From Aquabacterium sp. (GTDB lineage Bacteria > Pseudomonadota > Gammaproteobacteria > Burkholderiales > Burkholderiaceae_C), in NCBI RefSeq assembly GCF_029946005.1, contig NZ_JAQSDR010000006.1, positions 310,001 through 374,000 on the forward strand: 64,000 nt of DNA, given 5' to 3'. Under the pieces are notes generated by a model that had not been told where the DNA came from, did no database searches, and saw nothing but the letters and a program-made list of their open reading frames with translations. This document shows positions 10,575 to 52,335 of this stretch, one piece after another. Every line of letters begins with the position of its first letter. Position 1 is the first letter of the stretch. The position numbers and the translations under genes were made by a program.

Positions 10575-11180
10575 TCAACCCAGTGGGTTGGATGCCTCGG
10601 CCGCCTGCTTCGGAAATTTCTTGATCAGCCACTTCAGGACCTCCAGCTGATCCTGCGATGTGGCACGGCGCACCTGGATCAACAGTTTCTGCAAATCAGG
10701 CCTCGTCAGGGTGGCGTTGGACGCGCCTTCATTGCACACAGAACAAATGGCTCGAAGATTGGAGGGGTCATCTGTGCCACCCACGCTTTTGTCAATGACG
10801 TGACCTAAATGCAGCCTGGTTTTTCTGGTGCTGTCATAAGGGTGCGTCTCACCAGCCACCGCGCCACACATCTGACAGGTGAATCCATTGCGATCTAATA
10901 CAAAAGCCCGCGTTTCTTTTGAAATGCCACGTGCAAATGCCGGTTGGGGCTTCGCAATTTCCAGAAGGTATTGCCCGGGCTTCAACTCGCTGCGGTCGTT
11001 GTGCGTCAGGATCAAAAAGCCTTCCTCGGTGCGGAGTTCACGGACGCGCCGCCCCCATTCCGACTGATTGTCGGCAATCACGCGCAACTCTTCCGAATCC
11101 ATGACGCGGCCAATGTTAGCCAGGAAGTGGGCACGCAATTTACCGCGTGCGCCGCCCCGAGCCACCTTTGCCTTGCTCAT
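10575..11180 (-). CDS. HNH restriction endonuclease (type II, partner of the adjacent C5 methyltransferase)
   Basis: 201 residues from the ATG at 11180, which overlaps the methyltransferase stop (ATGA); upstream starts would lie inside that gene. An N-terminal winged-helix-like DNA-binding region (~12-70: LRAHFLANIGRVMDSEEL... WGRRVRELRTEEGF) precedes a Zn-finger HNH nuclease. The first CxxC is at 102-105, HLGH at 124-127, DDPSNLRAICSVCN at 137-150, with the second CxxC at 146-149. This matches the HNH endonuclease family repeatedly found next to Dcm-type methyltransferases. It cleaves unmethylated DNA; the recognition site cannot be read from sequence. Confidence 0.88.
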   Translation of the reverse strand: MSKAKVARGGARGKLRAHFLANIGRVMDSEELRVIADNQSEWGRRVRELRTEEGFLILTHNDRSELKPGQYLLEIAKPQPAFARGISKETRAFVLDRNGFTCQMCGAVAGETHPYDSTRKTRLHLGHVIDKSVGGTDDPSNLRAICSVCNEGASNATLTRPDLQKLLIQVRRATSQDQLEVLKWLIKKFPKQAAEASNPLG

Positions 11181-12142
11181 GCCGCGGCTCTTTTCAGTTT
11201 TGGCTTTGCCGCAGCATCGAAGGCCGCGTGGATTTGCAGACCGACTGCGCAAGCCACCGGTGGCGGAAAGGCATTGCCAATTTGGCGGTAGGCAGAAGTT
11301 TTCTTGCCGCTGAATTGCCAGCTGTCGGGAAAGCCCTGGATCCGGGCCGCCATTCGAACGGTGAGCCGAGGCATGCCCACGAAATCTTTGTCGGGCACCT
11401 CATTGGCGATGCCCATACCGTCAACACCCAGGGCAGCCCATGCTTTTTTGGCACGAGTCGGGCCAAGATCCGGACCCCCATGTTTTTTGCTGCCCCCCAC
11501 CAAGGTGGGACCAATGGCACAGGCCCGCTCTCGCCAGGGCTTGGCGCCCCGCCAGCCATTGGAGGCCATGAGGTCAAAAAGTGCATCGCCCACCGTGGGC
11601 GCCGGAACAGGGTGGGCAGAAGGCCAGATGAAGTGCTCCCAGACCTTCTTCTTCAAAGCGACAAAAACCACCCTGGGGCGCAACTGAGGCACGCCAAAAT
11701 CACTGGCATGCAGTAGCCGCCACTCTGCCACATACCCTAGTTTATTCAGATCATTGACGATCTTGGCGCGGTATTCATCGAAAACGGAATCCAGCAAGCC
11801 ACGAACATTTTCAAGCATCACTGCCTGAGGCTTGCATTCAGACACCAAGCGAATGGCCTCGGGAAACAGATCTCTCTCGTCTTCCTGGCCAAGTTGTTTG
11901 CCTGCTTTTGAAAATGGAGGGCAAGGCACGCCGCCCGCCAAAAGCTCAACGCCCTTCCATTTTTCAGCTGAATAGTGGCGCAGATCACCTTCGGTCACAT
12001 TCCAACCGATGCGGTTGATGCGCAGCGTTTGACAGGCAGCCGCCTCAAGCTCCACCAAGCTGACGTGGTCGAACCCGGCTTGCTCCAAGCCCAAGGCTTG
12101 GCCACCAGCACCCGCACAGATTTCTATAGAGCTCAAGGCCAT
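11177..12142 (-). CDS. DNA (cytosine-5-)-methyltransferase
   Basis: 321 residues. It transfers methyl from AdoMet to C5 of cytosine in a specific sequence and protects host DNA from the adjacent HNH nuclease. Motif I is CAGAGGQALGLEQAGF (9-24), motif IV GGVPCPPFSKAG with catalytic Cys74, motif VI ENVRG (111-115), motif VIII QLRPRVVF (153-160), then the target-recognition region. Motif IX is RLTVRMAARIQGFPDSW and motif X YRQIGNAFPPPVA. Short length suggests a small target-recognition domain. No clear ribosome-binding site precedes the ATG. The promoter region contains a LexA-like box. The nuclease gene overlaps its end by 4 bases, so modification is translated first. Confidence 0.94.
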   Translation of the reverse strand: MALSSIEICAGAGGQALGLEQAGFDHVSLVELEAAACQTLRINRIGWNVTEGDLRHYSAEKWKGVELLAGGVPCPPFSKAGKQLGQEDERDLFPEAIRLVSECKPQAVMLENVRGLLDSVFDEYRAKIVNDLNKLGYVAEWRLLHASDFGVPQLRPRVVFVALKKKVWEHFIWPSAHPVPAPTVGDALFDLMASNGWRGAKPWRERACAIGPTLVGGSKKHGGPDLGPTRAKKAWAALGVDGMGIANEVPDKDFVGMPRLTVRMAARIQGFPDSWQFSGKKTSAYRQIGNAFPPPVACAVGLQIHAAFDAAAKPKLKRAAA

Positions 12143-34448: not shown

Positions 34449-37400
34449 ATGCCCCCAGACGCCGCCGAACATCTTTTTTCCATGGGATTGGAATCACTGA
34501 TGGCCCGGCATGAGGGCATCAGGGTTGAAGGGGCCAAATCCTCGGCGGAACGATTTGACTGCGATGTTCTGATCGTGGGCAGTGGCTATGGCGCCGCCGT
34601 GACCGCAGATGCCCTGGCCGGCGTGCTCGATGGCCGCACCGGCCAAGCCAGCCGGGTGTGGGTGCTGGAGCGCGGCCAGCACTACGTGCAAGGCAGCTTT
34701 CCCGCTCGGCTGGCCGAACTGCCAGGCCACGTGCGCTTCACCACACCCGACAACACAACAGCGCAAGGGGTGCGCACGGGCCTGTTCGACGTGCGGGTGG
34801 GGCCCGATGTGTGCGCCGTGGTGGCCAACGGCCTGGGTGGCGGCTCGCTGATCAATGCCGGGGTGATGGCCATGCCCGAGCCTCAGGTGTTCGAGCAAGC
34901 TGCCTGGCCGGATGCCTTGCGTCAAGACGCAGCGTTGCTGCGCGAACTGGCACAAGGCTTGTCCACACGGCTGGGCGCACAAACCTGCCCTCCGGACCAG
35001 CCAAGACTGGCCAAGCACGCCGCGCTTGAAGAACTCGCCGGTGCATTGCCCGGGCATGGCGGCACGTTCAAATCGTTGCCCATCACCGTGGACTGGTCAA
35101 GCTGCCAACGCTGCGGTGACTGCGCCACCGGCTGCAACCACAACGCCAAACGATCGCTGGACAAGACCTTGCTGGCCTCGGCGCGGCGGCGAGGCGCGAG
35201 CTTGGTCACCGGTGCCAGCGTGCAACGTTTGGAGGCGCTGTCGGGTGGTCGGTGGCGGGTCTGGATCGAACACACCAACCCCTTGCTCGCGGCGCAAACC
35301 GACCAGGCGTTCACCGTTCGGGCCAGGCGGGTGGTGCTGGCCGCGGGCACTTTCGGTTCCACCGAAATCCTCATGCGCTCACGGGCCCACGGGCTGCCAA
35401 CCTCGGGCCGCCTGGGCGAGCACTTTTCAAGCAATGGGATGTGCTCGCCGCCGTGTACGGGCAGGCCTCGCCGGTCAATGCGGTGGCCGATGAGCACCAG
35501 GCCTCTGGCGAACGCGAGGTGGGCCCCACCATCACGGCGATGGTCGATCTGCGCCAGGCCAACCTAGCCGGTCAAGCCACGGCGCCCGGCCTGGGCCACG
35601 TGGTTCAGGAGCTGGCCGTGCCCGGGCCCCTCAAGCAGCTTTTCGCAGAGCTGTTCACCACCGCCAAGGCCCTGCACGATCTGGCCCGCTTCGACCTGAC
35701 CCGCCACCAGCCACACGACGACGACCCCCTGGTGTTGCGGGAGCAGCAACTCCGGCACACCCAGGTTCTGGCGATCATTGGTCACGACAGTGCCAACGGC
35801 CACCTTCGCCCGCCCGACCTCATCGACTGGAAAGACCCGAGCCGTGGCGAAGGGCTGCTCACCGTGTCCTGGCCAGAGCTGAAGGAAGACCCGCGCCCCG
35901 ATCAGCAACTGGCGGCGCTGCGCCAATGGTGCGAGGCCTCTGACCACCCCCTCGGCCAGGTGCTCCCCATGCCGTTGTGGCAACCCCTGCCCGCCAGCAT
36001 GCGCGCCTTGACCGGCGATCAAAAAGGCCCGGCCGTGAGCACCCACCCGCTGGGCGGCTGTGCCATGGGCGCTTCGGGCACCCATGGCGCGGTCAACCAC
36101 CTGGGTCAGGTTTTTCAGGGGCAGGGCACCGACGTGCACCCGGACCTCGTCGTGCTAGACGGCTCGATCATCCCCACCTCACTGGGCATCAACCCGGCCT
36201 TGACGATCGCCACCGTGGCTCAACGGGCCATCGATCGGCTTCGCGTTTTGTGGCGACTCACCGACGCAGACCCCACCCCTCCTACCCCCGTGACCGCGCC
36301 GCGCGTCTACCGTCAGCCATCGACCTTGTACGCCACCGCCGCGCGCCAACGCATCCCCACGACCATTGAAGTCACCGAGCAGCTGCATGCTTGGGTGAAC
36401 CCCGACGACTGGACACACGCCCTATGGCCCGAAGGACACCGCTTGGCTTTGCGGCTGACCTTGCGCTTTCAGCCGGTGGAGGCCCTTGCCCTGCTGAAGC
36501 CGAACCCCGATGCCCGCACCCTGCGCCTGGACCCGCAGCACAGCCGACTGGAATTTGCCCTGATCAACGGCCAGGAGTCGCGCGTGGGATCGGCTTTCGA
36601 ACGGGGCGAGGTGGTGTTGACGGCACCCTTGTCGGGCCAATTGCGCTTCATGTACCGCGAGGCCTCGACAGCCTGGCAGCGCGCCACGCGCGCGGGCTGG
36701 GCCTGGCTCATCAACCGGGGCCTGCGGGACACCGTGCTTCACCTGTTGGGCCGGGATTCGCCATCTTCATCGTCCGCCCATCTGAGCACGGCTGAACGGC
36801 TCCGCGGGCTGCTTCAACTGGCCACCCGGGCCGGTGAGGTGCGCCGCTTTGACTACAGCTTGCGCACACTCAACGCCACAGCGCAAAGCCAGGCCCCCTG
36901 GGTCCTGCAGCTCCAGCAAGCTTGGCAAGGCCAGGACCTGGCGGGCCACAAACGCCTCACCTATGCACGGCGTGGCAACCCCTGGACACAGCTGATGAGC
37001 ATGCGCCTGACCCAGCACCCGGGGCGCCCCGCCTGGTCCAACGCCGACATCCCGATGCAGGTGAACCTGTCGTACTTCGCAGAGCAAGGCGTGCCTTTGC
37101 TGCGATTGCTGCGCTTTGACACCATGCCCGACGCCCTGGCCGACCTGGGCAGCCTGGCGGCCTGGGTCTCGCGCGTGCTGCTGCACACCCATGTGTGGAC
37201 CTTCCGCAAGCCCGACACACCGCCATCGCGCCCGGTCCACCGGCTGCCCGGTCCCATCCCCGACCTCCCAGCGCCGGAGATCATCGACCTGGACGTGGGA
37301 CCAGCTGCGGTGCGCATCCGGCTCACACGGTACGCCCGGCACCACAGCCGTCCGGTGCTGATGATCCACGGCTACAGCGCCAGCGGCACCACCTTTGCCC

Positions 37401-38377
37401 ACCCTGCGGTGCGCCCCAACCTGGCCGAGACCCTGTGGAAGCAAGGTCATGACGTGTGGATCCTGGACATGCGCACCAGCCCCGGCCTGCCCACGTCGAG
37501 CCAGCCCTGGACCTTCGAGGAAGTTGCCTACAACGACATCCCCGAAGCGGTGGACCACATCGCGCGCGCCACGGGCCACGCCCAGATCGACATCGTGGCC
37601 CACTGCATGGGCTCGGCGATGCTGTGGATGGCTTTGCTCGGCGACCTGCCGACGCAAGCCACACCCACCGATGCCCGGCCCGCCTTGCGCGCCGCCCTCA
37701 AGGGCCGCATCCGCCGCCTGGTCATCTCGCAGGTTGCCCCCAAGGTGGCTTTCAGCCCCGCCAACGTCATGCGGGCTTACCTGGCCCGCTACCTGCGCCA
37801 GTTCATGCCCCTGGGCCGTTTCGACTTCCGCCCGGAGCACCCTACCCTGGCCGACACCTTGCTGGACCGCCTGCTGGCCTCGCAGACCTACCCCGACGCT
37901 GAATTCAGCATGGAGAACCCGTTCTGGCCACCCTGGCGTCAAGCCAGCTGGATCGGCACACGGCACCGCATGGACGCGCTGTATGGCCGGGACTTCAATG
38001 CCCTGAACCTGTCGGTGGGCATGCTGGACGCCATTGACGACCACTTCGGCCCCATGAACCTGGCCTCGGTCAGCCAGGCCATCCACTTCGCCCGCTGGCG
38101 TTGCCTGACCGACCATCAGGGCAACCCCGTCTACGTGACGCCCGCCCGGATGGCCGCCGCGTTCACCTTCCCGTGCCTGTACGTGCATGGCGAGGAAAAC
38201 GGCCTGTCCGACATCAGCGGCATGCACTTGTTCCGCGATTTCGTGGACAGCCTGGGGCCGCAATTTTCCGAACGCTTGGTCTGCGCCCCCATTCCTGGCT
38301 ACGGGCATCAGGACTGCCTGATCGGAAAGCGGGCCCATCACGACGTTTTTCCACACATCACACGCTTCTTGCAATGA
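34449..38377 (+). pseudogene. GMC oxidoreductase - alpha/beta-hydrolase fusion, disrupted by a frameshift
   Basis: The N-terminal frame (34449-35438) carries the FAD motif GSGYGAAVTADALAG, a CGDCATGCNHNAK segment and GTFGSTEI, all cholesterol-oxidase-like GMC features. At GGG 35436-35438 the coding continues only in the -1 frame (35438-38377), which holds the GMC C-terminal signature THPLGGCAMG and, from about 37350, an alpha/beta-hydrolase domain. One missing base in the G run explains it, and the restored protein would be about 1309 residues. The hydrolase has IHGYSASG, a nucleophile box AHCMG with Cys, and late PIPGYGHQD. No slippery heptamer is present. It could be a real pseudogene or an assembly error. 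It follows the hybrid kinase by 3 bases and precedes a PhoD-like gene. Confidence 0.85.
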
Positions 38378-41360: not shown

Positions 41361-42488
41361 ATGTGGCTCGCCCATTACGCCAGCGACCCGGCGCACACCA
41401 AAGGCCGCCTGCACGCCGAGGCGCCAGCGCCCACGCGCAACGATTTTCAGCGCGACCGCGACCGCATCGTGCACAGCACGGCTTTTCGGCGCCTGGTCTA
41501 CAAGACCCAGGTGTTCTTGAACCACGAAGGTGACCTGTTCCGCACCCGGCTGACGCATTCACTGGAGGTGGCGCAACTGGGCCGCTCCATCGCGCGGGCA
41601 TTGGGTTTGAACGAAGACCTGGTCGAGGCCATCGCCCTGGCGCATGACCTGGGCCACACACCCTTTGGCCACGCGGGTCAGGACACGCTCAACGAGTGCA
41701 TGAGCACCTATGGTGGCTTCGAGCACAACCTGCAATCGCTGCGCGTGATCGACGAGCTGGAAGAACGCTACCCCGCCTTCAACGGCCTGAACCTGAGCTT
41801 TGAAACGCGCGAAGGCGTGCTCAAGCATTGCTCACGCAAGAATGCCGAGTTGATGGAAGCGCGCGAGCCGGGCGGCGTAGGACACCGCTTCCTGCAAGGC
41901 ACGCAACCCAGCCTGGAAGCGCAGCTGTGCAACCTGGCCGACGAGATCGCCTACAACGCCCACGACATCGACGATGGCGTGCGCTCGGGCCTGATCACGA
42001 TGGAGCAGTTGGAAAGCGTACCCCTGTTCACGCGCTTTCGGGATGAGACCTTGTCGGAATTCCCGGACGTGAAAGGACGGCGCCTGTTGTTCGACACCAT
42101 CCGCCGCATGCTGTCGCAGCAGGTCTACGACGTGATCGACGCCACGCGCGATGCCCTCACTGAGCATGCACCCAGCTCCGCGGACGCGGCGCGCCTGTGC
42201 CCGTCCCTGGTGCGTTTCAGCCAACCAATGCGGGAAGCCAGCACGCAGCTCAAGCGCTTCCTGTTCAAAGAGTTGTACCGGCATCCCCAGGTCAACGAGA
42301 CCACGGCGCGGGCCAAGCAGGTGATTGCCGAGCTGTTCGCGGCCTATGTGGACAAGCCAGGTGAGATGCCTTTGGAGCATGCGCAGCGCGAAGACGCGCA
42401 CCGCGCGGTGGCGGACTACATCGCCGGCATGACCGATCGCTTTGCCATCCGCGAACACGAACGGCTCACGGGGCGGCGGCTGTTCTGA
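41361..42488 (+). CDS. dgt: Deoxyguanosinetriphosphate triphosphohydrolase-like protein
   Basis: 375 residues, ATG at 41361, 7 bases after aroB. HD-domain motifs: RLTHSLEVAQLGR, AHDLGHTPFGHAGQD and DEIAYNAHDIDDGVRSG. It hydrolyses dNTPs (dGTP-type) to deoxynucleoside and tripolyphosphate; this subfamily often has broader specificity. The aroB-dgt order is common in Burkholderiales. Confidence 0.92.
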   Translation: MWLAHYASDPAHTKGRLHAEAPAPTRNDFQRDRDRIVHSTAFRRLVYKTQVFLNHEGDLFRTRLTHSLEVAQLGRSIARALGLNEDLVEAIALAHDLGHTPFGHAGQDTLNECMSTYGGFEHNLQSLRVIDELEERYPAFNGLNLSFETREGVLKHCSRKNAELMEAREPGGVGHRFLQGTQPSLEAQLCNLADEIAYNAHDIDDGVRSGLITMEQLESVPLFTRFRDETLSEFPDVKGRRLLFDTIRRMLSQQVYDVIDATRDALTEHAPSSADAARLCPSLVRFSQPMREASTQLKRFLFKELYRHPQVNETTARAKQVIAELFAAYVDKPGEMPLEHAQREDAHRAVADYIAGMTDRFAIREHERLTGRRLF

Positions 42489-42492
42489 GCTC

Positions 42493-44631
42493 TCAAGCGT
42501 GAGTTGCTTCGAGCACTGGCGCCACGATGCGGAACCTCTGGACCAACGCTTCAATCGCGGCCAGTGTGGGCTGTGCACTGAGGATCTCGGCGATCTGAAG
42601 AATGTCTTCCTCAGGCAGCGCCCACCATTGCAACCTGGACAAGGCTCCTCGAACATCTTCATCGAATCGGAACTTGAGGTGCTTGGCCGGATTGCCGCCC
42701 ACGATTTCGTAGGGAGCCACATCCTTGACCACCTGGGCATTGGCCGCGATGACCGCGCCATCTCCGATGGTGACGCCCGACATGATGGTTGCCCCATGGC
42801 CAATCCACACGTCATGGCCAATGACGACATCCCCGTTCGTGGCGGGATGTCCCTTGATGCCCTGGCCACCGAGTTCATCGGCGTACAGGTGCCCGAAGGG
42901 ATAGGTGCTCACCCAATCGACCCGGTGATTTCCGCCCAGAAAGATGGTCACGGAAGATGCAATCGAGCAGAAGCTTCCAATGTTCAGCGTGGCGCCTTCG
43001 CCCCACTCCCGGACGCTGAGGTGCTCCATGCCATAGGTGAAACGGCCAATGGTCACGTCACTGCGCCCCACTTTATCGCGCACACCCGACTTGTTGACCA
43101 CGTGCTTCTTGCCCGGCTTGTGCAGGACCATGCCCGGCCGCACCTCGTCCGCCCCGACATCGGCAGCGGGCAAATCATCGGGCAGCGCAAAGTCAGCACG
43201 CATGACCCGCGCAGTCGTGCGCTCCTTCATGGTGGTCACCACCTTGGTCAGCACTACGCGCATGAAGGCGGCCTTGTCCTTGGCGCACTCTTTCAGCTTG
43301 TCATCAAGGTAGCCGAACTGCTCCACCGTGAAGCGGTGCTCGAACCAACCCAGGTACCAGAACCAGTCTGTGTAGTAAAGCCATGATTTTTCGTTCAGGG
43401 CCCGAAGGTGGGTGGGATCCTGCCAGGCGGTTGCGGCATGTTCGTAAGGCACCTCAAGCAGAAATTTGCCACCCGTCTTCAGCAGCTTCAGGCAATTGCC
43501 CATCAACTCCGGCAGGTCCGGCACATGCTCCAGCACATTGTTGGCGTAGATCAGTTCGGCACCGCCCTCCTCAAGGCACACGTGGCCACCGTAGGGTGTT
43601 TTGACCTTCACAGGCCATGACACCGGCCGCCCCAAGTCCAGAACCAGATCGGGCTGAGCGCGGTCAAGCACATCGATGTTCAACCAGCCAGGCTTGTAGT
43701 CCTTGCCCGACCCCAGGTTGATCCGGGCAGGTCGCCAATCATCGCTGGGTCTCGCCAACTGGTGCGCGCGCCCAAAACCAACCGCGAATGCCATCAGGTC
43801 GGCATAGGCCTCGATCGGATCGGCATCCTGGAAATTCACCAGGCTCTGGATCGCCATCTCGTAAAAATATGGCGAGCCGAACTGCTCAGCAAAATAGGTG
43901 TCCAGGTTCGACTCATCCACCCAGATCACGCTGTTCTCGAACGCGGCATGCGGCATGCTCTGCGGGGCCCGCTCAGAAATGACCGGCGTGCCCACCGAAA
44001 GGCAATGCGACACGCGCGCCTGCTCGAAACGACTGGTGGGATAAAAGTGCGCATTGAACACGGCTTTGGACTGCACGATCATCTGATCGCGCTCGGGGCC
44101 GTACAAGGGGCTGTCAAACAGACTGACCTTCACGCCCTGGGCTTCGATGCGGTTGATCATCGCGCGGCGGCGATCATTCATGCTGCCAATGAACAGGAGG
44201 TCGATCGGACGGTCTTCCAGAGGCAGAAACTCAAGCTGAGACAGATAGGGCGCGTACAAGAAGGGCACGATGGGTACTTCTGCGGGCACGGCTGCATAGG
44301 CCGCGACGTTGTCGGCGTCATAGTCCACCACGGCCGAAGTGGCCAGCAACTGCAAGTAATCGCGCGAGACCGCCGCTCCACCTTGGCCCAGTTGCTCCAG
44401 ATTCACGAAGACGCAGCTGTAGCGTTGGCGAAGCGCCGCGTCGAAGCCCAGGTGCGCGCCGAAAACGAAGTTCACAGCGTCATGGCGCAGGCGGTTTTTT
44501 GCCAAGCTGACCTGCGCGCCCATGCGGCGGAACTGGTGGCGGAAGTACCGTGCCTGGTCCAGGAAGCCCAGCGAGTGCACATAACCACTCGGCTGCACGA
44601 TGCACAGGTGGACATGGGGGAGCTGGGTCAT
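42493..44631 (-). CDS. Trimodular glycosyltransferase / methyltransferase / CatB-type acetyltransferase
   Basis: 712 residues in three domains. Residues 1-285 resemble glycosyltransferases of the CgeB/GT1 type (FIGSMNDRRRAMINRIEA, HFYPTSRFEQARVSHCLSVG). Residues 303-480 are a methyltransferase-like domain (INLGSGKDYKPGWLNID, ELIYANNVLEHVPDLPELMG). Residues 518-690 are a left-handed beta-helix xenobiotic-acetyltransferase domain (IGSFCSIASSV, catalytic-type His ~569 in GGNHRVDW, VVIGHDVWIGHGATIMSGV, NPAKHLKFRF). It overlaps the O-GlcNAc-type transferase gene upstream by 4 bases. Next to flagellin genes, it is likely to build or decorate a flagellin glycan. Substrates are unknown. Confidence 0.8.
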   Translation of the reverse strand: MTQLPHVHLCIVQPSGYVHSLGFLDQARYFRHQFRRMGAQVSLAKNRLRHDAVNFVFGAHLGFDAALRQRYSCVFVNLEQLGQGGAAVSRDYLQLLATSAVVDYDADNVAAYAAVPAEVPIVPFLYAPYLSQLEFLPLEDRPIDLLFIGSMNDRRRAMINRIEAQGVKVSLFDSPLYGPERDQMIVQSKAVFNAHFYPTSRFEQARVSHCLSVGTPVISERAPQSMPHAAFENSVIWVDESNLDTYFAEQFGSPYFYEMAIQSLVNFQDADPIEAYADLMAFAVGFGRAHQLARPSDDWRPARINLGSGKDYKPGWLNIDVLDRAQPDLVLDLGRPVSWPVKVKTPYGGHVCLEEGGAELIYANNVLEHVPDLPELMGNCLKLLKTGGKFLLEVPYEHAATAWQDPTHLRALNEKSWLYYTDWFWYLGWFEHRFTVEQFGYLDDKLKECAKDKAAFMRVVLTKVVTTMKERTTARVMRADFALPDDLPAADVGADEVRPGMVLHKPGKKHVVNKSGVRDKVGRSDVTIGRFTYGMEHLSVREWGEGATLNIGSFCSIASSVTIFLGGNHRVDWVSTYPFGHLYADELGGQGIKGHPATNGDVVIGHDVWIGHGATIMSGVTIGDGAVIAANAQVVKDVAPYEIVGGNPAKHLKFRFDEDVRGALSRLQWWALPEEDILQIAEILSAQPTLAAIEALVQRFRIVAPVLEATHA

Positions 44632-46604
44632 GATGAAGGTCCGTCAATGAGGGAGATGTGATCGCACGGTTGGCCTTGCGACCAACGCTCTGCCATGGCC
44701 CACAGCAAGCGGCCGAAGTCACGCGTGTAGCTCTGGCTGTCGAACAGGGGCGCGGTCTCGCGGGCATGAGCCAGGTGGTCCCGGATGGCCTGACGCCGGG
44801 CAGGGTCGCTGGCCAGTTGCATGACTTGCGCCTCGTAGTCCGCCAGCGTGGTGGTGGCCAGCTCGGGCAGACCCACGTCGGTCAGCAAACTGGCAGCCAC
44901 CCGCGAAGCGAAGGTCGTGCCCGCATAGGTGACCAGGGGCACCCCCGCCCACAAGGCATCGCTGGCGGTGGTGTGCGCATTGCAAGGCCAGGTGTCGATG
45001 AAGACATCTGCCAGCGCGAGGCGGCTCATGTGCTCCTTGGCCCCCACCCTGGGCGCGAAGAACAGCCGGGCAGGGTCCACCCCTCGGGCTTCGGCCTCGG
45101 CGCGCAAGGGAGCCGAAGATTGATCGTTCCATTGCAACAGCCAGAGCACCGAACCAGGCAGTTGGCGCAGAAGGCGGCACCAAACATCGAACACCTCGGG
45201 CGAGAGTTTGAAGGGTTGATTGAAGCCGCACAGCACCAGGGCATCGCGCGGCAGCCCCACTTCTTCACGCGTGCAAGGTTGAGGTTTGGAACGCTGGCGA
45301 TCATTGGGCTGATAGCAGCGCGGCATCAAGGCCAGCTTCTCGCTGTAGTTGTTGGCGTGATCCAGGGGCGACGCGATGGCGTCACCAATGAAGTAGTCCA
45401 TGTAGTCGGCGCCCGTCGTGCCGGGAAAGCCCAGGAAGCTGGCTTGCACTGGGGCGGCCCGGTGGCCAAAGATGCCCAAGCGGCTGCCGCGTGTGTGACC
45501 TTTCAGGTCCACCAACACCTCGATACTGTCCTGGCGAACCATCTGCGCCACCTGCAGATCGCTGAATGCATCGATCTTGACGAACTTGGCACAAGCCCGC
45601 TTGAGCCGCTCGCGCATGGGGCTGCCATCCTCCGGACCATGCGAGTACATGGTGACTTCAAAGCGAGGATCGGCGTTCAGCTGCTCGAACACCTCGGCCA
45701 TCAGGATGGCGGTAGCGTGCTGGTGAAAATCGGCGGACACAAAACCCACACGAAGACGTTCGCCCAACGCTCGGGGTGCCAAAGGCGCGAATGGCTCAAC
45801 CAGTCGCGCCTGGAAGCGCGCGCACGAACGGGCAACACGCAGATGCTCCTGCGCATCATCCGTGACCGTGACATGGGCAAACACCGAGGCCCAGGCGATG
45901 GCATGGGCTGGCAGCTTGGCGGCCAATCCACGCAGGACCACCAGGTCGGTCTTGGCATGCTGCCAAGAGCAAATCTCTCGCTCGATGAACGTCAGCATGC
46001 CTTGTGCAGCCAGATCGCCAGGCCCCATGCCCAAGGCCAGCGCTGTGCGAAAGCATTCGATGGCTTCGTTCTTGAGCCCCAGTGCGTTGAACGACAGACC
46101 CAGTCGGTAGTGAGACAGGACATGGTCCATCTCCAGCGCCAACCCTTCGAACAAGGCACTGATGGCCTTCTCATACTGGCTGGAGTTGAACAGTGACTCG
46201 CCCAGCAACTGCCAATACTGAGCAGAGCGCGTCACATGCTGCGGTAGGCGCTCCAGCAACCCGACGCTTTCGACATGGCGGTTTTGCCGATTCAGGCACT
46301 CACAGGCAACCTCCACCGCGATGGCGTTGTCGGGCTGAAGTGCGATCACCTTCATCGCTGTGAGGTGAGCCTGATTGACCGTGCCATTCTTCATCTGGGC
46401 ACGGGCCAGGTTCAAAAGGTACAGCGCATCCTGTGGTTGGACTTTCACCGCCTTGTCGAAAGCGGCCTGCGCCTTGGGCCAGTCGCCAGACTTGGCGTAT
46501 TTCACACCCGACTCCCAATTTTGATGGGCCACCCTCAAGACTTCGGCCCCCGGGCCGTTATGAGTCTTGTGAGGAGTTTTGACGGGTTTTTGGTGAATAG
46601 CCAT
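44628..46604 (-). CDS. SPINDLY-type O-GlcNAc transferase homologue with TPR repeats
   Basis: 658 residues from the ATG at 46604. TPR-like repeats occupy about 25-240 (WESGVKYAKSGDWPKAQAAFDKA, YWQLLGESLFNSSQYEKAIS). The catalytic GT41 part has FVSADFHQHATAILM, DLKGHTRGSRLGIFGHRAAP, FLGFPGTTGADYMDYFIGD, CGFNQPFKLSPEVFDVW, and DTWPCNAHTTASDALWAGVP. It would transfer a sugar to Ser/Thr. It is divergent from the first flagellin gene and overlaps the trimodular gene, forming a likely flagellin glycosylation pair. Confidence 0.87.
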   Translation of the reverse strand: MAIHQKPVKTPHKTHNGPGAEVLRVAHQNWESGVKYAKSGDWPKAQAAFDKAVKVQPQDALYLLNLARAQMKNGTVNQAHLTAMKVIALQPDNAIAVEVACECLNRQNRHVESVGLLERLPQHVTRSAQYWQLLGESLFNSSQYEKAISALFEGLALEMDHVLSHYRLGLSFNALGLKNEAIECFRTALALGMGPGDLAAQGMLTFIEREICSWQHAKTDLVVLRGLAAKLPAHAIAWASVFAHVTVTDDAQEHLRVARSCARFQARLVEPFAPLAPRALGERLRVGFVSADFHQHATAILMAEVFEQLNADPRFEVTMYSHGPEDGSPMRERLKRACAKFVKIDAFSDLQVAQMVRQDSIEVLVDLKGHTRGSRLGIFGHRAAPVQASFLGFPGTTGADYMDYFIGDAIASPLDHANNYSEKLALMPRCYQPNDRQRSKPQPCTREEVGLPRDALVLCGFNQPFKLSPEVFDVWCRLLRQLPGSVLWLLQWNDQSSAPLRAEAEARGVDPARLFFAPRVGAKEHMSRLALADVFIDTWPCNAHTTASDALWAGVPLVTYAGTTFASRVAASLLTDVGLPELATTTLADYEAQVMQLASDPARRQAIRDHLAHARETAPLFDSQSYTRDFGRLLWAMAERWSQGQPCDHISLIDGPSS

Positions 46605-46711: not shown

Positions 46712-46739
46712 TCAAGTCCCTGCAAGCACGTTCCGATAA
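46712..46739 (+). promoter_or_regulatory. Sigma-28 promoter of the first flagellin gene, with a long leader
   Basis: TCAAG (46712-46716) and TCCGATAA (46732-46739) match the flagellar sigma factor FliA consensus. The predicted transcript starts near 46747 and has a leader of about 185 bases to the flagellin ATG. The 326-bp gap 46605-46930 also contains a pyrimidine-rich tract and short dyads (GGTCCGG...CCGGCC, 46781-46798). No other gene is seen in this gap. Confidence 0.75.
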
Positions 46740-46930
46740 GTAAACCAACGGCCTTCACATCATTAAGTAAGTAGGCACGTGGTCCGGTTAGCCGGCCGAT
46801 GGTTCTGGTGGCCAAGCCACTTGGGCAATGCGGTTGACTAGCGTCGGGCAGGCGAGCTGCAGTAGCTGTATCGCTGCACCAATCTTGTTAGGCGCTTTCC
46901 GCCGTCTTTTTTTACCATTAGGAGTACACC

Positions 46931-47776
46931 ATGGCTTCCATCATCAACACCAACCTGAACTCGCTGAACGCTCAGCGCAACACCTCGACATCGCAAATGT
47001 CGCTGGCCACCTCCATGCAGCGTTTGTCGTCGGGTCTGCGCGTCAACTCCGCCAAGGACGACGCCGCCGGTCTGGCCATCGCCGAACGCATGTCGGCACA
47101 AATCAAGGGCATGAACGTCGCGGCGCGCAATGCCAACGACGGCATCTCGCTGGCTCAAACGGCTGAAGGCGCGTTGGGCAAGGTGGGGGAATCGCTGCAA
47201 CGCATGCGTGAATTGGCTGTTCAAGCCCGTAACGCCACCAACAGCGACGGCGACAAGGACTCGCTGGACAAGGAATTCCAGCAACTGTCCAAGGAAATCC
47301 AGCGCGTTCTGGGCGGTACCACCTTCAACGGCAAGGCCATCATCGGCAGCGATGCAGACACCCTGACCTTCCAGGTTGGCGCCAACACCACGGACAATGA
47401 CATCATTGAGGTTACGACCACCGACATGACCGGAGACGCCAGCATCACCGCCGTGACCGACGCCACGGTGGTGATTGACAGCACGACCGATGTCGCTGGC
47501 CTGGCAACCGTGATCGACGACATCGATGCCGCGATTGACCGCGTCAACACGGAGCGCGCTGTCTTCGGTGCCACGCAAAACCGTTTTGACTCGGTGATCT
47601 CGAACCTGCAAGTCTCGGTTGAAAACCAGACCGCCGCCAAGAGCCGGATCATGGACGCCGACTTCGCCACAGAAACGGCCAACCTGTCTCGTGCGCAGAT
47701 CCTGCAGCAGGCTGGTAACGCGATGATTGCTCAGGCCAACCAGTTGCCTCAGCAAGTGCTGTCGCTGCTGCGCTGA
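46931..47776 (+). CDS. fliC: Flagellin (first copy)
   Basis: 281 residues with AGGAG before the ATG. The N-terminal D0/D1 helix ([43 protein letters not shown]) and the C-terminal D0/D1 ([40 protein letters not shown]) are conserved. The middle D2/D3 region is short, so the filament surface is small. It contains many Ser/Thr residues ([19 protein letters not shown]) that could be glycosylated by the divergent transferase pair. Its own sigma-28 promoter and terminator make it a monocistronic unit. Confidence 0.96.
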
Positions 47777-48002: not shown

Positions 48003-48848
48003 ATGGCCCAAACGATCAACACCAATCTGAATTCGCTGAACGCACAGCGGAATCTGAACATGTCTCAGACCGCCCTGTCTGTGTCGATGCAGCGTTTGTC
48101 TTCGGGCTTGCGAGTCAACTCCGCCAAGGACGATGCTGCCGGCCTGGCCATCGCCGAGCGGATGAACTCGCAAATCAAGGGCATGAATGTCGCAGCGCGA
48201 AATGCCAATGACGGCATTTCGCTGGCGCAGACGGCTGAAGGCGCCTTGGGCAAGGTCAGTGATGCGCTGCAACGCATGCGGGAATTGACGGTTCAGTCAC
48301 GCAACGCCTCGAACAGCGACAGCGACCGCGACTCGTTGAACAAGGAATTCCAGCAGTTGTCCGCAGAAATCGTGCGGGTCACGGCGGGCACCACCTTCAA
48401 CGGCAAGCCCATCCTGGCCACCGATGCCGCGCAAGATTTCCAGATCGGGGCCAACACCACGGCCAACGACATCATCACGATCAGCACCACCGACATGACG
48501 GCGGATCCCAGCATCGCGCTCGTGACGGATGCCCTGACCGTGATCGACAGCACATCGACCACCACCACCCTGGGCGACGTGATCAACGCGATCGACGGAG
48601 CCCTGGACCGGATCAACAGTGAACGTGCCGTCTACGGTGCCACGCAAAGCCGTTTCGACGCCATCATTTCGAACCTGCAGGTATCGGCCGAAAACCAGAC
48701 CGCCGCCCGCAGCCGCATCATGGACGCCGATTTCGCCTCAGAAACCGCGGCCATGTCGCGCGCCCAGATCCTGCAACAGGCCGGCAACGCCATGGTCGCC
48801 CAGGCGAATGCCCTGCCGCAGCAGGTGCTCAAGCTGCTGCAAGGTTGA
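48003..48848 (+). CDS. Flagellin (second copy)
   Basis: 281 residues from the ATG at 48003 ([20 protein letters not shown]); AGGAG lies 7 bases upstream. It is strongly similar to the first flagellin in D0/D1 and equal in length, differing mainly in the middle region. The C-terminus ends [11 protein letters not shown]. It is the second of a tandem pair, and may give a filament of two flagellins or be expressed under different conditions. Confidence 0.95.
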
Positions 48849-48949: not shown

Positions 48950-50410
48950 ATGGCCAGTAGCATCACATCCTTGGGTATCGGCAGCGGCCTGGATGCCAAC
49001 ACGATCGTGACCAAACTGGTCGCGCTGGAAAGCCAGCCGATCACCAACCTGCAAGCCGCGTCCGACAAGCTGCAGACCAAGATCTCGGCCTATGGCCAGG
49101 TCCAGTCTGCCGTGTCTGGCGTGCGCGATGCCGCGCGAAAACTGACTTCGGCCGATCTATGGGGCGCCACAGCCGCTGCCTCCGCCGACGCCACCGCCGT
49201 GAACGCCACCACCTCTGCAGGCGCCCAGGTGGGCACCTACGCCGTGGATGTGACTGTTCTGGCCAAGACCCAATCGGTGGTGACCAAGACCTCACTGGCT
49301 TCCGGTGCCAGCACCCTGGGATCGGGCACCTTGACCATCGACCTGGGCACGTGGACCGGCAACAGCTTTGCCGCCAAATCAGGCACCACCCCCGTGACGA
49401 TCAACGTGGAAGCCACCGACACCCTGGCCAACATCCGCGACAAGATCAACGGCAGCAACTCAGGTGTCAAAGCCTCGATCATCACGGACTCATCGGGTTC
49501 GCGGCTGGTCATGCAGTCGGCCGCCACCGGCGAGGCCAATGGCTTTCGCATCACCGCCGCCGACGCTGGCGATGGGAACAACATTGACGATGCGGGACTG
49601 TCTGCCCTGGCCTATGACCCCGGCAGCACGACGGCCGGCACAAACTTGAGCCAGGCGGCGACTGACGCGGAAGCGACGATCAACAACGTCCCCATCAAAT
49701 CGGCCACCAACACCTTGAGTGAGGTGATCTCAGGCCTGACCATGACCCTGAGCAAGGTCACCACCGGCCCGGGCATCACCACCGGCCCGATCAACATCAC
49801 CGTCAGCCAGGACACGGCCGCCATCACCAAAGCGATCACCGACTTCGCCACGGCGTATTCGTCAATGGCGACCTTGCTGAAAACCAACACCAAGTACGAC
49901 GAGAGCACCAAGACCGCCGGCAACTTGCAAGGCGACAGTGGCGCCTTGAGCGTTCAGAACCAGTTCCGATCCATCCTGGGCAGCAGCTCGGACGCGTCCA
50001 GTACCTTTGGCACCCTGTCGTCGATCGGCCTGGAAATCCAGACCGATGGGACTGTCAAAGTCAACAGCAGCAAGCTGACCAGCTCGCTGGGCAATCTGGC
50101 AGAGGTGAAAAAGCTGTTCTCGAACTCGGATTCGGTGGATGCCAACAAGGACGGCATCATGACCCGCTTGCGGGTACTGAGCGACAACCTGTTGAGCACC
50201 GACGGCATCTTGACCGTGCGCACCAGCGGCCTCAAACAGACGATCACCGACAACCAGGCTCGACAGGAGTCCTTGCAGAACCGCGTCGATTTGTACGAGA
50301 AGCGCCTGAAGGCGCAGTACACCGCGCTCGACACCATCATGGCCGGGCTGAGCAGCCAGGGCAATTACGTGACCCAAATGATCAACTCGCTGAACAACAG
50401 CAGCAATTGA
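48950..50410 (+). CDS. fliD: Flagellar filament cap protein FliD
   Basis: 486 residues with AAGGAG before the ATG. FliD_N starts ITSLGIGSGLDANTIVTKLV, ALESQPITNLQAASDKLQTK; FliD_C ends YTALDTIMAGLSSQGNYVTQM. The coiled-coil terminal D0 parts and Ser/Thr-rich central part are normal. FliD forms the pentameric or hexameric cap that inserts flagellin subunits at the filament tip. Confidence 0.95.
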   Translation: MASSITSLGIGSGLDANTIVTKLVALESQPITNLQAASDKLQTKISAYGQVQSAVSGVRDAARKLTSADLWGATAAASADATAVNATTSAGAQVGTYAVDVTVLAKTQSVVTKTSLASGASTLGSGTLTIDLGTWTGNSFAAKSGTTPVTINVEATDTLANIRDKINGSNSGVKASIITDSSGSRLVMQSAATGEANGFRITAADAGDGNNIDDAGLSALAYDPGSTTAGTNLSQAATDAEATINNVPIKSATNTLSEVISGLTMTLSKVTTGPGITTGPINITVSQDTAAITKAITDFATAYSSMATLLKTNTKYDESTKTAGNLQGDSGALSVQNQFRSILGSSSDASSTFGTLSSIGLEIQTDGTVKVNSSKLTSSLGNLAEVKKLFSNSDSVDANKDGIMTRLRVLSDNLLSTDGILTVRTSGLKQTITDNQARQESLQNRVDLYEKRLKAQYTALDTIMAGLSSQGNYVTQMINSLNNSSN

Positions 50411-50483: not shown

Positions 50484-50536
50484 CCATGGTGAATGGGTTT
50501 TTTGTGCAGGTTTTTTGCAGTACCGGGAGCAATATC

Positions 50537-51730
50537 ATGGCTTCAATCTCCATCGCGGGGACGGGCAGTGGCATTGATGTCAGTTCGTTCGTCACACAGC
50601 AGCAACTGTCGGTTGAGAGACCGTCGGCTGATCCACCACGAGCGCTCCAGGTCGAACCTGCACAGACCAATCTGTCGCCTCAAGGCAAGCTGCAAAGCGC
50701 GCAATCAACCTACGTGAATGCCGCCCAGAAGCTGGCCGATGACATCAGCTGGGCCAACACCATCGCCAACTCCAGCCAGCCATCGGCCGTCTCGGCCGCC
50801 AGCGACAGCACCGCCGCGGCAGGCAACTACAGCGTTGAAGTGAACTCCCTGGCCACGGCGCAGGCCACCACCTCCGCATCGTTCTCCGGCGTGGGCACTG
50901 TGATCGGCCTGGGTACCCTGCACATTGAACTGGGCAGCATCAACAGCTCGCAAACCGCCTTCTCCACCAACCCCAACTGGCCCAAGTCGGACGTGCGCCT
51001 TGGGCCCCACGACAACTCGCTGGAGAAGATCCGCGACAAGATCAACGCCGCTGGCGTGGGCGTCGTGGCCTCGGTCATCAGTGACGCCACAGGCTCCCGC
51101 CTGGTGCTGCGCTCGACTGGTACCGGCGCCGAGAATGGATTCAAGGTGTCTGCCTCGGGCGAGGAGGGCAAGCCCCCCAGCCCCGACCTGGCGGCACTGG
51201 GATTTGACCCCATGCTTGCTCAGCAAAGCACCCAGCAAACGCAAGCGGCGGCAGATGCCAAAGCCAAGATCGATGGCCTGGACGTTCAATCGCCCACCAA
51301 CACCGTGTCCGATGCCGTGCAGGGCGTCAGCTTCAAACTGGGCAAGGTCACCGATGGCCCGGTCAACGTGTCGATCGGCATGGACCAGGAGGGCTTGAAG
51401 AAATCCATCAACGAGTTCACCCAGTCTTACAACGAACTGAACGCCCAGGGACAGGCCCCCAAGGTGCCAAGCCAGCGCCTGGCCGACATTGGGATCGCCC
51501 AGGATGCCGATGGCGCCATGAAGATCGACAGCGCCCGGCTGGACAAAGCCCTGGCCACCCAGCCAGAGAAGGTGCGGGACGTGTTCGCAGAGGCCCGGGA
51601 CGAGGCCTCTGCCACCAAGACCAGGGAGCAGCAGCCCGAGCGCAGCTCAGAGCAACCAGCGGCCGCCTACGCCCAGAAGCTGCTGGACCAGTACAAGTCG
51701 CTTGAGTCCAGCGAAACCGCCGCGCATTGA
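50537..51730 (+). CDS. Divergent, shorter FliD paralogue
   Basis: 397 residues from the ATG at 50537. The start ASISIAGTGSGIDVSSFVTQ and central segments (NSLEKIRDKINAAGVGVVAS, VISDATGSRLVLRSTGTGAE) are FliD-like. Where fliD has its N-terminal coiled coil, this protein has a Pro-rich stretch (ERPSADPPRALQVEP). The C-terminal coiled coil is replaced by a charged segment ending YAQKLLDQYKSLESSETAAH. It is about 90 residues shorter than the first FliD. It could be a minor cap subunit or a decaying duplicate. Confidence 0.82.
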   Translation: MASISIAGTGSGIDVSSFVTQQQLSVERPSADPPRALQVEPAQTNLSPQGKLQSAQSTYVNAAQKLADDISWANTIANSSQPSAVSAASDSTAAAGNYSVEVNSLATAQATTSASFSGVGTVIGLGTLHIELGSINSSQTAFSTNPNWPKSDVRLGPHDNSLEKIRDKINAAGVGVVASVISDATGSRLVLRSTGTGAENGFKVSASGEEGKPPSPDLAALGFDPMLAQQSTQQTQAAADAKAKIDGLDVQSPTNTVSDAVQGVSFKLGKVTDGPVNVSIGMDQEGLKKSINEFTQSYNELNAQGQAPKVPSQRLADIGIAQDADGAMKIDSARLDKALATQPEKVRDVFAEARDEASATKTREQQPERSSEQPAAAYAQKLLDQYKSLESSETAAH

Positions 51731-51867: not shown

Positions 51868-52335
51868 ATGTACGCCACCATCACAGCCTCCTCTGCCAAC
51901 GTCTTTGGTCCCCGGACCTCAGGCAACATGTACCGCCAGGTCGGCCTCGAAACCGGGGTCAGCGGCGCCTCGCCACATCAACTGATTGGCATGCTGCTCA
52001 ATGGCGCACTCGAAGCCATTGCCCAAGCGCGCGGCGCCATCAAATCCAAACAGATCGAAGCCAAGTGCAAGGCCATCAGCAAGGCCGTGAGCATCGTCGA
52101 CGAAGGCCTGAAGGCCAGCCTTGACCTGAAGACCGGCGGCCCCCTGGCCGCCAACCTGAACGACCTGTACGCCTACGTGACCACCCGTTTGACGCAGGCC
52201 AATCTGCATTCGGATGACGCGGCCCTGGAGGAATGCGCCAACCTCCTGAGCCCCTTGCGTGATGCCTGGAGCACCATCGGCTCCAGCAACGCTGAACAAG
52301 CGCGCAACACCTACCTTGAAGGGGTTCGCCCATGA
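51868..52335 (+). CDS. fliS: Flagellar export chaperone FliS
   Basis: 155 residues. Family signatures are YRQVGLETGVSGASPHQLIG, MLLNGALEAIAQARGAI and LYAYVTTRLTQANLHSDDAA. FliS binds flagellin's C-terminal D0 in the cytosol to prevent premature polymerisation and directs it to FlhA. Slightly longer than usual because of an N-terminal extension. It overlaps fliT by 4 bases. Confidence 0.94.
   Translation: MYATITASSANVFGPRTSGNMYRQVGLETGVSGASPHQLIGMLLNGALEAIAQARGAIKSKQIEAKCKAISKAVSIVDEGLKASLDLKTGGPLAANLNDLYAYVTTRLTQANLHSDDAALEECANLLSPLRDAWSTIGSSNAEQARNTYLEGVRP

Follow-up and report, generated by a model that had tools for sequence, protein, structure and literature searches.

We analyzed a 64,000-nucleotide stretch of an Aquabacterium sp. 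genome (contig NZ_JAQSDR010000006.1, positions 310,001 to 374,000 of the forward strand; hereafter the window), in which two adjacent minus-strand genes stand divergently to the flagellin genes. One encodes a 712-residue protein with a glycosyltransferase (GT), an S-adenosylmethionine (SAM) methyltransferase (MT), and an acetyltransferase (AT) domain, and the other a GT41-family enzyme with tetratricopeptide repeats (TPRs) of the O-linked N-acetylglucosamine (O-GlcNAc) transferase (OGT) type. Judging from sequence and from analogy with characterized systems, the locus probably serves O-glycosylation of flagellin: the GT41 enzyme would attach an initial sugar, and the trimodular enzyme would extend it with another sugar and modify that one. 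The features are listed below.

42493-44631, minus strand: trimodular GT-MT-AT gene, 712 residues (open reading frame, Pfam, phmmer; three-module orthologues in the related loci L004, L005, and L006)
43753-44631, minus strand: predicted GT-B-type glycosyltransferase domain, residues 1-293 (AlphaFold2 and Foldseek; PF13524 in 9 of 66 members)
43177-43734, minus strand: class I SAM methyltransferase domain, residues 300-485, INLGSGK at 304 (Pfam, model)
42526-43071, minus strand: CatB/XAT-like hexapeptide acetyltransferase domain, residues 521-702, HRVDW at 569 (phmmer, conserved His)
44628-46604, minus strand: predicted OGT-type protein O-glycosyltransferase with TPRs and a GT41 domain, 658 residues when read from the ATG (Pfam, XcOGT motifs)
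46713-46739, plus strand: predicted sigma-28-like site upstream of fliC, 3 mismatches to the consensus
46931-47776, plus strand: flagellin 1 (fliC), 281 residues, middle region of about 57 residues (Pfam Flagellin_N/C)
48003-48848, plus strand: flagellin 2 (fliC), 281 residues (Pfam Flagellin_N/C)
48950-50410, plus strand: fliD filament cap (Pfam)
50486-51730, plus strand: second FliD-like protein (Pfam)
51868-52335, plus strand: fliS flagellin export chaperone (profile search)
41361-42488, plus strand: gene that we take to be dgt-like, convergent with the trimodular gene across a 4-base gap

The trimodular and GT41 genes overlap by 4 bases, and the flagellin, fliD, and fliS block runs divergently from position 46931; the coordinates thus bear out the overlap and the divergence from fliC described in a first-pass annotation made from the sequence alone. 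Glycosyltransferase genes within the flagellin locus are the mark of a flagellin glycosylation island, and they are present here.

Domain composition of the trimodular protein

Profile searches and structure models confirmed that the 712-residue chain joins a SAM methyltransferase to a GT-B-type glycosyltransferase on its N-terminal side and to a CatB-like acetyltransferase on its C-terminal side, as the first-pass annotation had read it. Three Pfam matches exceeded their cut-offs (Hexapep, residues 601-634; Methyltransf_23, 354-405; Methyltransf_11, 353-391), while residues 1-290 had none and were assigned through relatives and a fold match. PF13524 (Glyco_trans_1_2, presumably a CgeB-like family) was matched at E ≤ 0.01 by 9 of 66 aligned members (the 66 include 7 standalone acetyltransferases), although not by the window protein itself. 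The top Foldseek match of the AlphaFold2 model was the GT-B structure of Gtf3 (3qkw, E = 2.6e-6), with Gtf3, GtfC, and MshA all matched, at modest TM-scores for Gtf3 (0.27 by query, 0.53 by target). This search used the first model only, whose alignment had placed the 7 standalone acetyltransferases on the wrong columns; alignment and model were then redone without them. The predicted local distance difference test score (pLDDT) was mostly above 85-90 over residues 1-293 and 300-480, apart from lower values around 400-420, and below 50 over the acetyltransferase region (about 493-655) in both models. PF00535, a GT-A-type family that characterizes the Clostridioides difficile GT2-type enzyme, was absent from the protein at E ≤ 1.

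Residues 300-485 have both the Pfam match and the fold of class I SAM methyltransferases, and G307 and G309 are invariant across the aligned relatives. The C-terminal domain resembles CatB-type acetyltransferases (PDB 6pu9, E = 1.2e-37 by phmmer), and its hexapeptide repeats and conserved His place residues 521-702 in the CatB/XAT-like superfamily; the His of HRVDW (residue 569), presumably catalytic, was kept in 13 of 13 sequences compared. Chloramphenicol or streptogramin resistance was rejected as its main role because the scores fall far below the curated cut-offs (134.5 versus 350 bits for the CatB equivalog NF000490; 131.9 versus 300 bits for Vat).

The GT41 enzyme

The GT41 protein matched Glyco_transf_41 at E = 1.2e-93 (314.7 bits against a cut-off of 25), with TPR matches falling between positions 51 and 209 as numbered from an upstream GTG. 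It keeps the motifs of XcOGT, namely the His in SADFHQHAT, the Lys in FNQPFKL, and AHTTASD, which we take to serve catalysis and nucleotide binding. The family assignment made in the first-pass annotation therefore stands, and its label "SPINDLY-type" proved a loose one: its bit score was 152 for SPINDLY but 299 for the Xanthomonas OGT and 291 for the highest-scoring 110-kDa OGT entry. Some GT41 members can use donors other than UDP-GlcNAc, as SPINDLY shows (PMC9715652).

Further GT41 genes lie elsewhere in the same genome. On contig C4 (L126, 3329-8120), one is followed by a methyltransferase gene, a gene for a 365-residue protein with no Pfam match, and a gene for a DUF5672 protein, by its sequence possibly a second protein-glycosylation cluster; additional GT41 open reading frames are found on contigs C36 and C2.

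Relatives of the GT-MT core and their flagellar context

Peptide patterns taken from the trimodular protein were run against a genome collection. They matched 118 stretches and yielded 104 relatives, of which the best 80, on 79 loci, were studied; the set accordingly leans to close relatives. GT and MT were both present in 77 of the 79 loci, which are mostly from Burkholderiales. In 49 loci, a GT41 gene (E < 1e-20) preceded GT-MT on the same strand by no more than 1.5 kb, and in 58 one was present somewhere in the locus, which upholds the predicted coupling to an O-GlcNAc-transferase-type enzyme. Flagellin was present in 45 of the 79 loci and at least one searched flagellar gene (FliC, FliD, FliS, FlhD, FlhC, MotA, or MotB) in 51, L079 being counted by MotA/MotB alone; among loci of at least 18 kb, the figure was 35 of 47.

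In a 200-genome sample of the family, the window's own genome included, all 19 other genomes with a full GT-MT (E < 1e-150) had Flagellin_N, against a base rate of 149/200. For the 13 of these with visible coordinates, GT-MT and flagellin were at most 16 kb apart in 9 and on different contigs in 3; in G183, GT-MT lies about 1.1 Mb from both listed flagellin copies. The expected co-occurrence with flagellin was thus recovered: with 51 of 79 loci flagellar and 19 of 19 genomes carrying flagellin, the pair does not reside mostly away from flagellin.

Two further possibilities were examined and discarded. Among 2589 matching plasmid records, none covered 80% of the trimodular protein in one place, which speaks against a plasmid-borne version, and neither the GT41 nor the trimodular protein had a PADLOC match at E ≤ 0.001 that would point to anti-phage defence.

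Several layouts recur or stand out among the relatives. A FliD-like second copy after fliD, as at window positions 50486-51730, is seen in L005, L006, L007, L008, L014, L020, and L053. L051 (3206-6484) carries GT41 and GT-MT in a single open frame of 1093 codons running up to the contig end, a GT41-GT-MT fusion. In L063, L066, and L067 (Leptothrix/Sphaerotilus), GT41, a gene of about 355 codons, and GT-MT stand beside genes for a prepilin peptidase, a CoaE-like protein, and ZapD.

Variable modules and genes after the GT-MT core

GT-MT occurred at E ≤ 1e-20 in 20 of 42 genomes of the window's genus, and the acetyltransferase fusion in 4 of the 42: the window's own and G238, G223, and G235, which correspond by coordinates to L004, L005, and L006. 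Those three are also the only fused loci among the 79. Because the acetyltransferase part was found in only four genomes of one genus, acetylation is, as far as sequence can tell, a local addition to an otherwise common GT-MT enzyme; the first-pass annotation, right about the domain, had drawn acetylation of the glycan too broadly.

Other genomes carry other modules in this position. A 435-residue module, probably of glycosyltransferase type, is found in three genomes of the genus (L147, L152, and L153); PF13524 exceeded its cut-off in 2 of 3 distinct sequences (values for L068 and L147 being identical), and the sole solved-structure match was at chance level (E = 0.87). A 460-residue module with no Pfam match and no solved relative occurs in one genome of the genus (L158) and outside it in L102; in L069, L070, and L103, it is joined directly to the GT domain without a methyltransferase. 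The remaining 12 genomes of the genus with GT-MT have no long extension (7 inspected, 5 assessed from the length of the open frame). Beyond the genus, a TylF methyltransferase forms the C-terminal end in L030 and L072, and a PF13524 glycosyltransferase does so in L056.

The closest comparison is with L007 and L008, which are 85-86% identical over GT-MT and lack the acetyltransferase module. In L007, a separate methyltransferase gene occupies the place of the fusion partner; in L008, the dgt-like gene, which marks the edge of the slot in the nearest relatives, follows about 14 bases on. The 74-row tree placed the four fused proteins together with L007 and L008 in a clade of six rows (support 99; short search, SH-like approximate likelihood-ratio test only, with the split, cut, or methyltransferase-less L051, L062, L069, L070, L074, and L077 omitted). 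Since the fused four group with these module-less proteins, the module would have changed state twice, a gain and a loss being the simplest account. Three of the 4 fused genomes, and 0 of the 38 others (E ≤ 1e-20), also have a standalone acetyltransferase that shares 61-62% identity with the fused domain and may be the source of the module; as the three carriers form one clade, the link between the standalone and fused copies is only suggestive.

All three domains are under purifying selection. By the Nei-Gojobori method, the ratio of nonsynonymous to synonymous substitution rates (dN/dS) against the window copy was 0.07-0.09 for AT, 0.05-0.11 for GT, 0.035-0.074 for MT, and 0.13-0.25 for the linker, and within the close pair L004-L005, AT gave 0.15, GT and MT 0.06-0.07, and the linker 0.42; these values are rough because many dS exceed 1.

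The gene following GT-MT was surveyed at 72 loci, on either strand and with simple gene calling. It was heptose-kinase-like in 6, where it stands at the head of a sugar operon (heptose-type labels denote resemblances under curated cut-offs), an MT445 methyltransferase in 6, U251 followed by a NeuD-type acetyltransferase in 5, FlhD in 6, and dgt in 4, three of which are the fused loci; another 12 bore other labels (U500 in 4, U357 in 3, U438 in 3, MT228 in 1, and DegT in 1) and 33 were unlabeled. The NeuD-type assignment rests on L018, just over its cut-off (162.2 versus 160.8 bits), to which the genes of L024-L027 are 76-84% identical. Because the downstream genes vary in this way, a constant core with variable tailoring genes recurs at this type of locus, and GT-MT probably represents a conserved core whose C-terminal end, or next gene, is a slot where tailoring enzymes are attached or exchanged. 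A bolder version, to which we give somewhat less than even credence, is that the C terminus is a docking slot where acetyltransferase, TylF-type, and several probable glycosyltransferase modules were fused in separate events and have disappeared or shifted to the following gene; exchanging one module of this assembly-line-like enzyme would then re-tailor the whole glycan.

At L013 (11547-18711), and similarly in L015, L017, L019, L021, and L022, a heptose-type operon with HddA-, HddC-, and GmhA-like genes directly follows GT-MT and also includes a DegT aminotransferase and split E1/transketolase-type genes.

The acetyltransferase module might instead act elsewhere, for instance on a small molecule in the manner of CatB, or be a passenger, leaving GT-MT alone to serve flagellin. 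Its closest solved relatives are indeed CatB and Vat enzymes, L007 and L008 manage without it, and the 62% identical standalone copy of the window's own genome sits between a DEAD-box helicase gene and a radical-SAM gene. We nevertheless regard this as very improbable given the low dN/dS of the module, the retained catalytic-type His, the distance from the CatB and Vat cut-offs, and the presence of sugar-tailoring enzymes in the slot elsewhere, the NeuD-type acetyltransferase included.

A proposed function and its alternatives

In the proposed flagellin O-glycosylation pathway, the TPR-GT41 enzyme would bind flagellin in the cytoplasm before export and attach a first sugar to Ser/Thr residues of the short middle region. 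The GT-B domain of the 712-residue enzyme would add a second sugar onto this stub, which the methyltransferase domain would O-methylate and the CatB-like domain would O-acetylate. Given the precedents of Caulobacter FlmG and C. difficile GT1/GT2, the simplest reading is that GT41 acts first, followed by GT, MT, and AT. We infer the flagellin substrate, the donor sugars, the acceptor positions, the order of steps, the activities, and the placement of methyl and acetyl groups on the sugar that this same chain transfers. The two decorating domains could instead modify the first, GT41-added sugar, or a nucleotide sugar that has yet to be transferred. The data leave the acceptor unfixed and the acetyltransferase is modeled at low confidence; on the other hand, C. 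difficile GT2, as its authors propose (PMC5207246), both transfers rhamnoses and methylates those residues, and we consider this alternative unlikely.

Several observations weigh against assigning the locus to flagellin. No nucleotide-sugar gene that would name the sugars was recognized beside the trimodular gene among the 7 window proteins searched against Pfam. The Ser/Thr-rich flagellin middle noted in the first-pass annotation proved a weak point: the 57-residue middles of the two flagellins have 30% and 32% Ser plus Thr, against 11-18% in the flanks, but 467 and 563 of 5000 shuffles, respectively, do at least as well as the richest window, and the enrichment thus does not exceed what shuffling gives. 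The sigma-28-like site at 46713-46739 is shared by the window and four relatives (five intergenic regions aligned; the spacer differs in L006) and has 3 mismatches to what we take to be the sigma-28 consensus. At that stringency, the pattern matches 25 times in the window versus 12.5 expected (0 of 100 shuffles reach 25), which makes any single match weak, and the sole intergenic match on the GT41 strand (46888-46914, 3 mismatches) is 284 bases away from the ATG on the upstream side. These matches therefore do not demonstrate co-regulation with flagellin.

The distribution adds to these points. The 79 loci were chosen through peptide patterns of the window protein, and since they share ancestry, their counts are not independent. 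No searched flagellar gene was present in 28 of them, some on short contigs; L058, L060, L063, L066, and L067 span 21 kb without one, L045 is another long locus of this kind, and L063, L066, and L067 share a layout beside the prepilin peptidase. Within the genus, GT-MT was not found at E ≤ 1e-20 in 22 of the 42 genomes, and G015, G065, and G109 encode full-length distant GT-MT proteins (28-38% identity, E = 1e-76 to 2e-43) in genomes without a listed flagellin match. The first-pass annotation was therefore supported on the flagellar context and too exclusive in tying the enzymes to flagellin, as the non-flagellar loci, the Sphaerotilus/Leptothrix group, and these three genomes show.

Such cases would fit a pair that glycosylates another surface target (type IV pilin, an adhesin, lipopolysaccharide, or exopolysaccharide), with adjacency to flagellin reflecting inherited gene order. 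The L063 copy (Leptothrix) neighbors Peptidase_A24 and ZapD by Pfam, L066 and L067 have the same layout, and the Piscinibacter loci L017, L019, and L022 adjoin the heptose-type operon with no searched flagellar gene. The same operon, however, also occurs at flagellin in L013, L015, and L021, and the flagellar placement recurs in varied orders (fliC upstream, fliC downstream, flhDC side) across Burkholderiales and again in Acidobacteriota (L076 and L078). We therefore consider another target improbable. A pilin substrate for the flagellin-less copies was sought with a home-made motif, a weak test, in 31 of the 34 FliC-less loci, and the only match was an internal one in L079.

Flagellin glycans are a fast-changing surface chemistry met by phages, protists, and hosts. 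Constant core enzymes with an exchanged tailoring module would offer a testable handle on glycan diversification in Aquabacterium-related environmental bacteria, and the variation among loci predicts exact flagellin mass differences between close relatives with acetyltransferase-fused, unfused, and methyltransferase-carrying versions.

Other features of the window

At 34449-38377, one long frame encodes a GMC-oxidoreductase-like stretch followed by an alpha/beta-hydrolase-like one, both recognized by eye, with the N-terminal part in an overlapping other frame; this may be a fusion or a frame disruption. At 10575-12142, two genes of low coding score, one starting like a C5 DNA methyltransferase (by eye), coincide with a dip in G+C to 0.59, and from the sequence are a possible acquired modification system.

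Comparison with known systems

The best fold matches of the model of the 712-residue protein include streptococcal Gtf3/GtfC (3qkw, 4w6q), at about 10% identity. Gtf3 extends an O-GlcNAc stub on an adhesin, and to our knowledge, no fused domains are known for these enzymes. The CatB, Vat, and XAT enzymes share sequence similarity, hexapeptide repeats, and the catalytic-type His with the window acetyltransferase, which differs from them in being fused and in scoring far under the drug-acetyltransferase cut-offs.

Caulobacter FlmG (PMC7591256) acts on flagellin in the cytoplasm through a TPR part that binds flagellin and a GT-B-type domain. The window GT41 enzyme resembles it in this domain plan; FlmG, however, uses pseudaminic acid. 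In C. difficile type B flagellin, according to the available portion of PMC5207246, GT1 adds GlcNAc and GT2, a glycosyltransferase plus methyltransferase, extends it with rhamnose. Both systems thus pair a first-sugar enzyme with a chain bearing glycosyltransferase and methyltransferase domains; GT2, however, belongs to Pfam 00535 and has no acetyltransferase module mentioned in that portion, whereas the window enzyme lacks PF00535 and carries a fused acetyltransferase.

Flagellin islands of Enterobacteriaceae (De Maayer and Cowan 2016, PMC4875605) contain GT41 enzymes with a SPINDLY-family domain at fliC, an AdoMet methyltransferase domain in all GT41 enzyme types but one, and separate methyl- and acetyltransferase genes that differ among strains. 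There, the methyltransferase domain lies inside the GT41 protein; in the window, it lies inside a second, GT-B-type enzyme that also bears the acetyltransferase. A literature search, with subscription papers mostly outside its reach, found no description of a GT-MT-AT fusion, in agreement with the first-pass annotation. The kind of locus is already known, and the three-part fusion looks like a rare version among several interchangeable ones.

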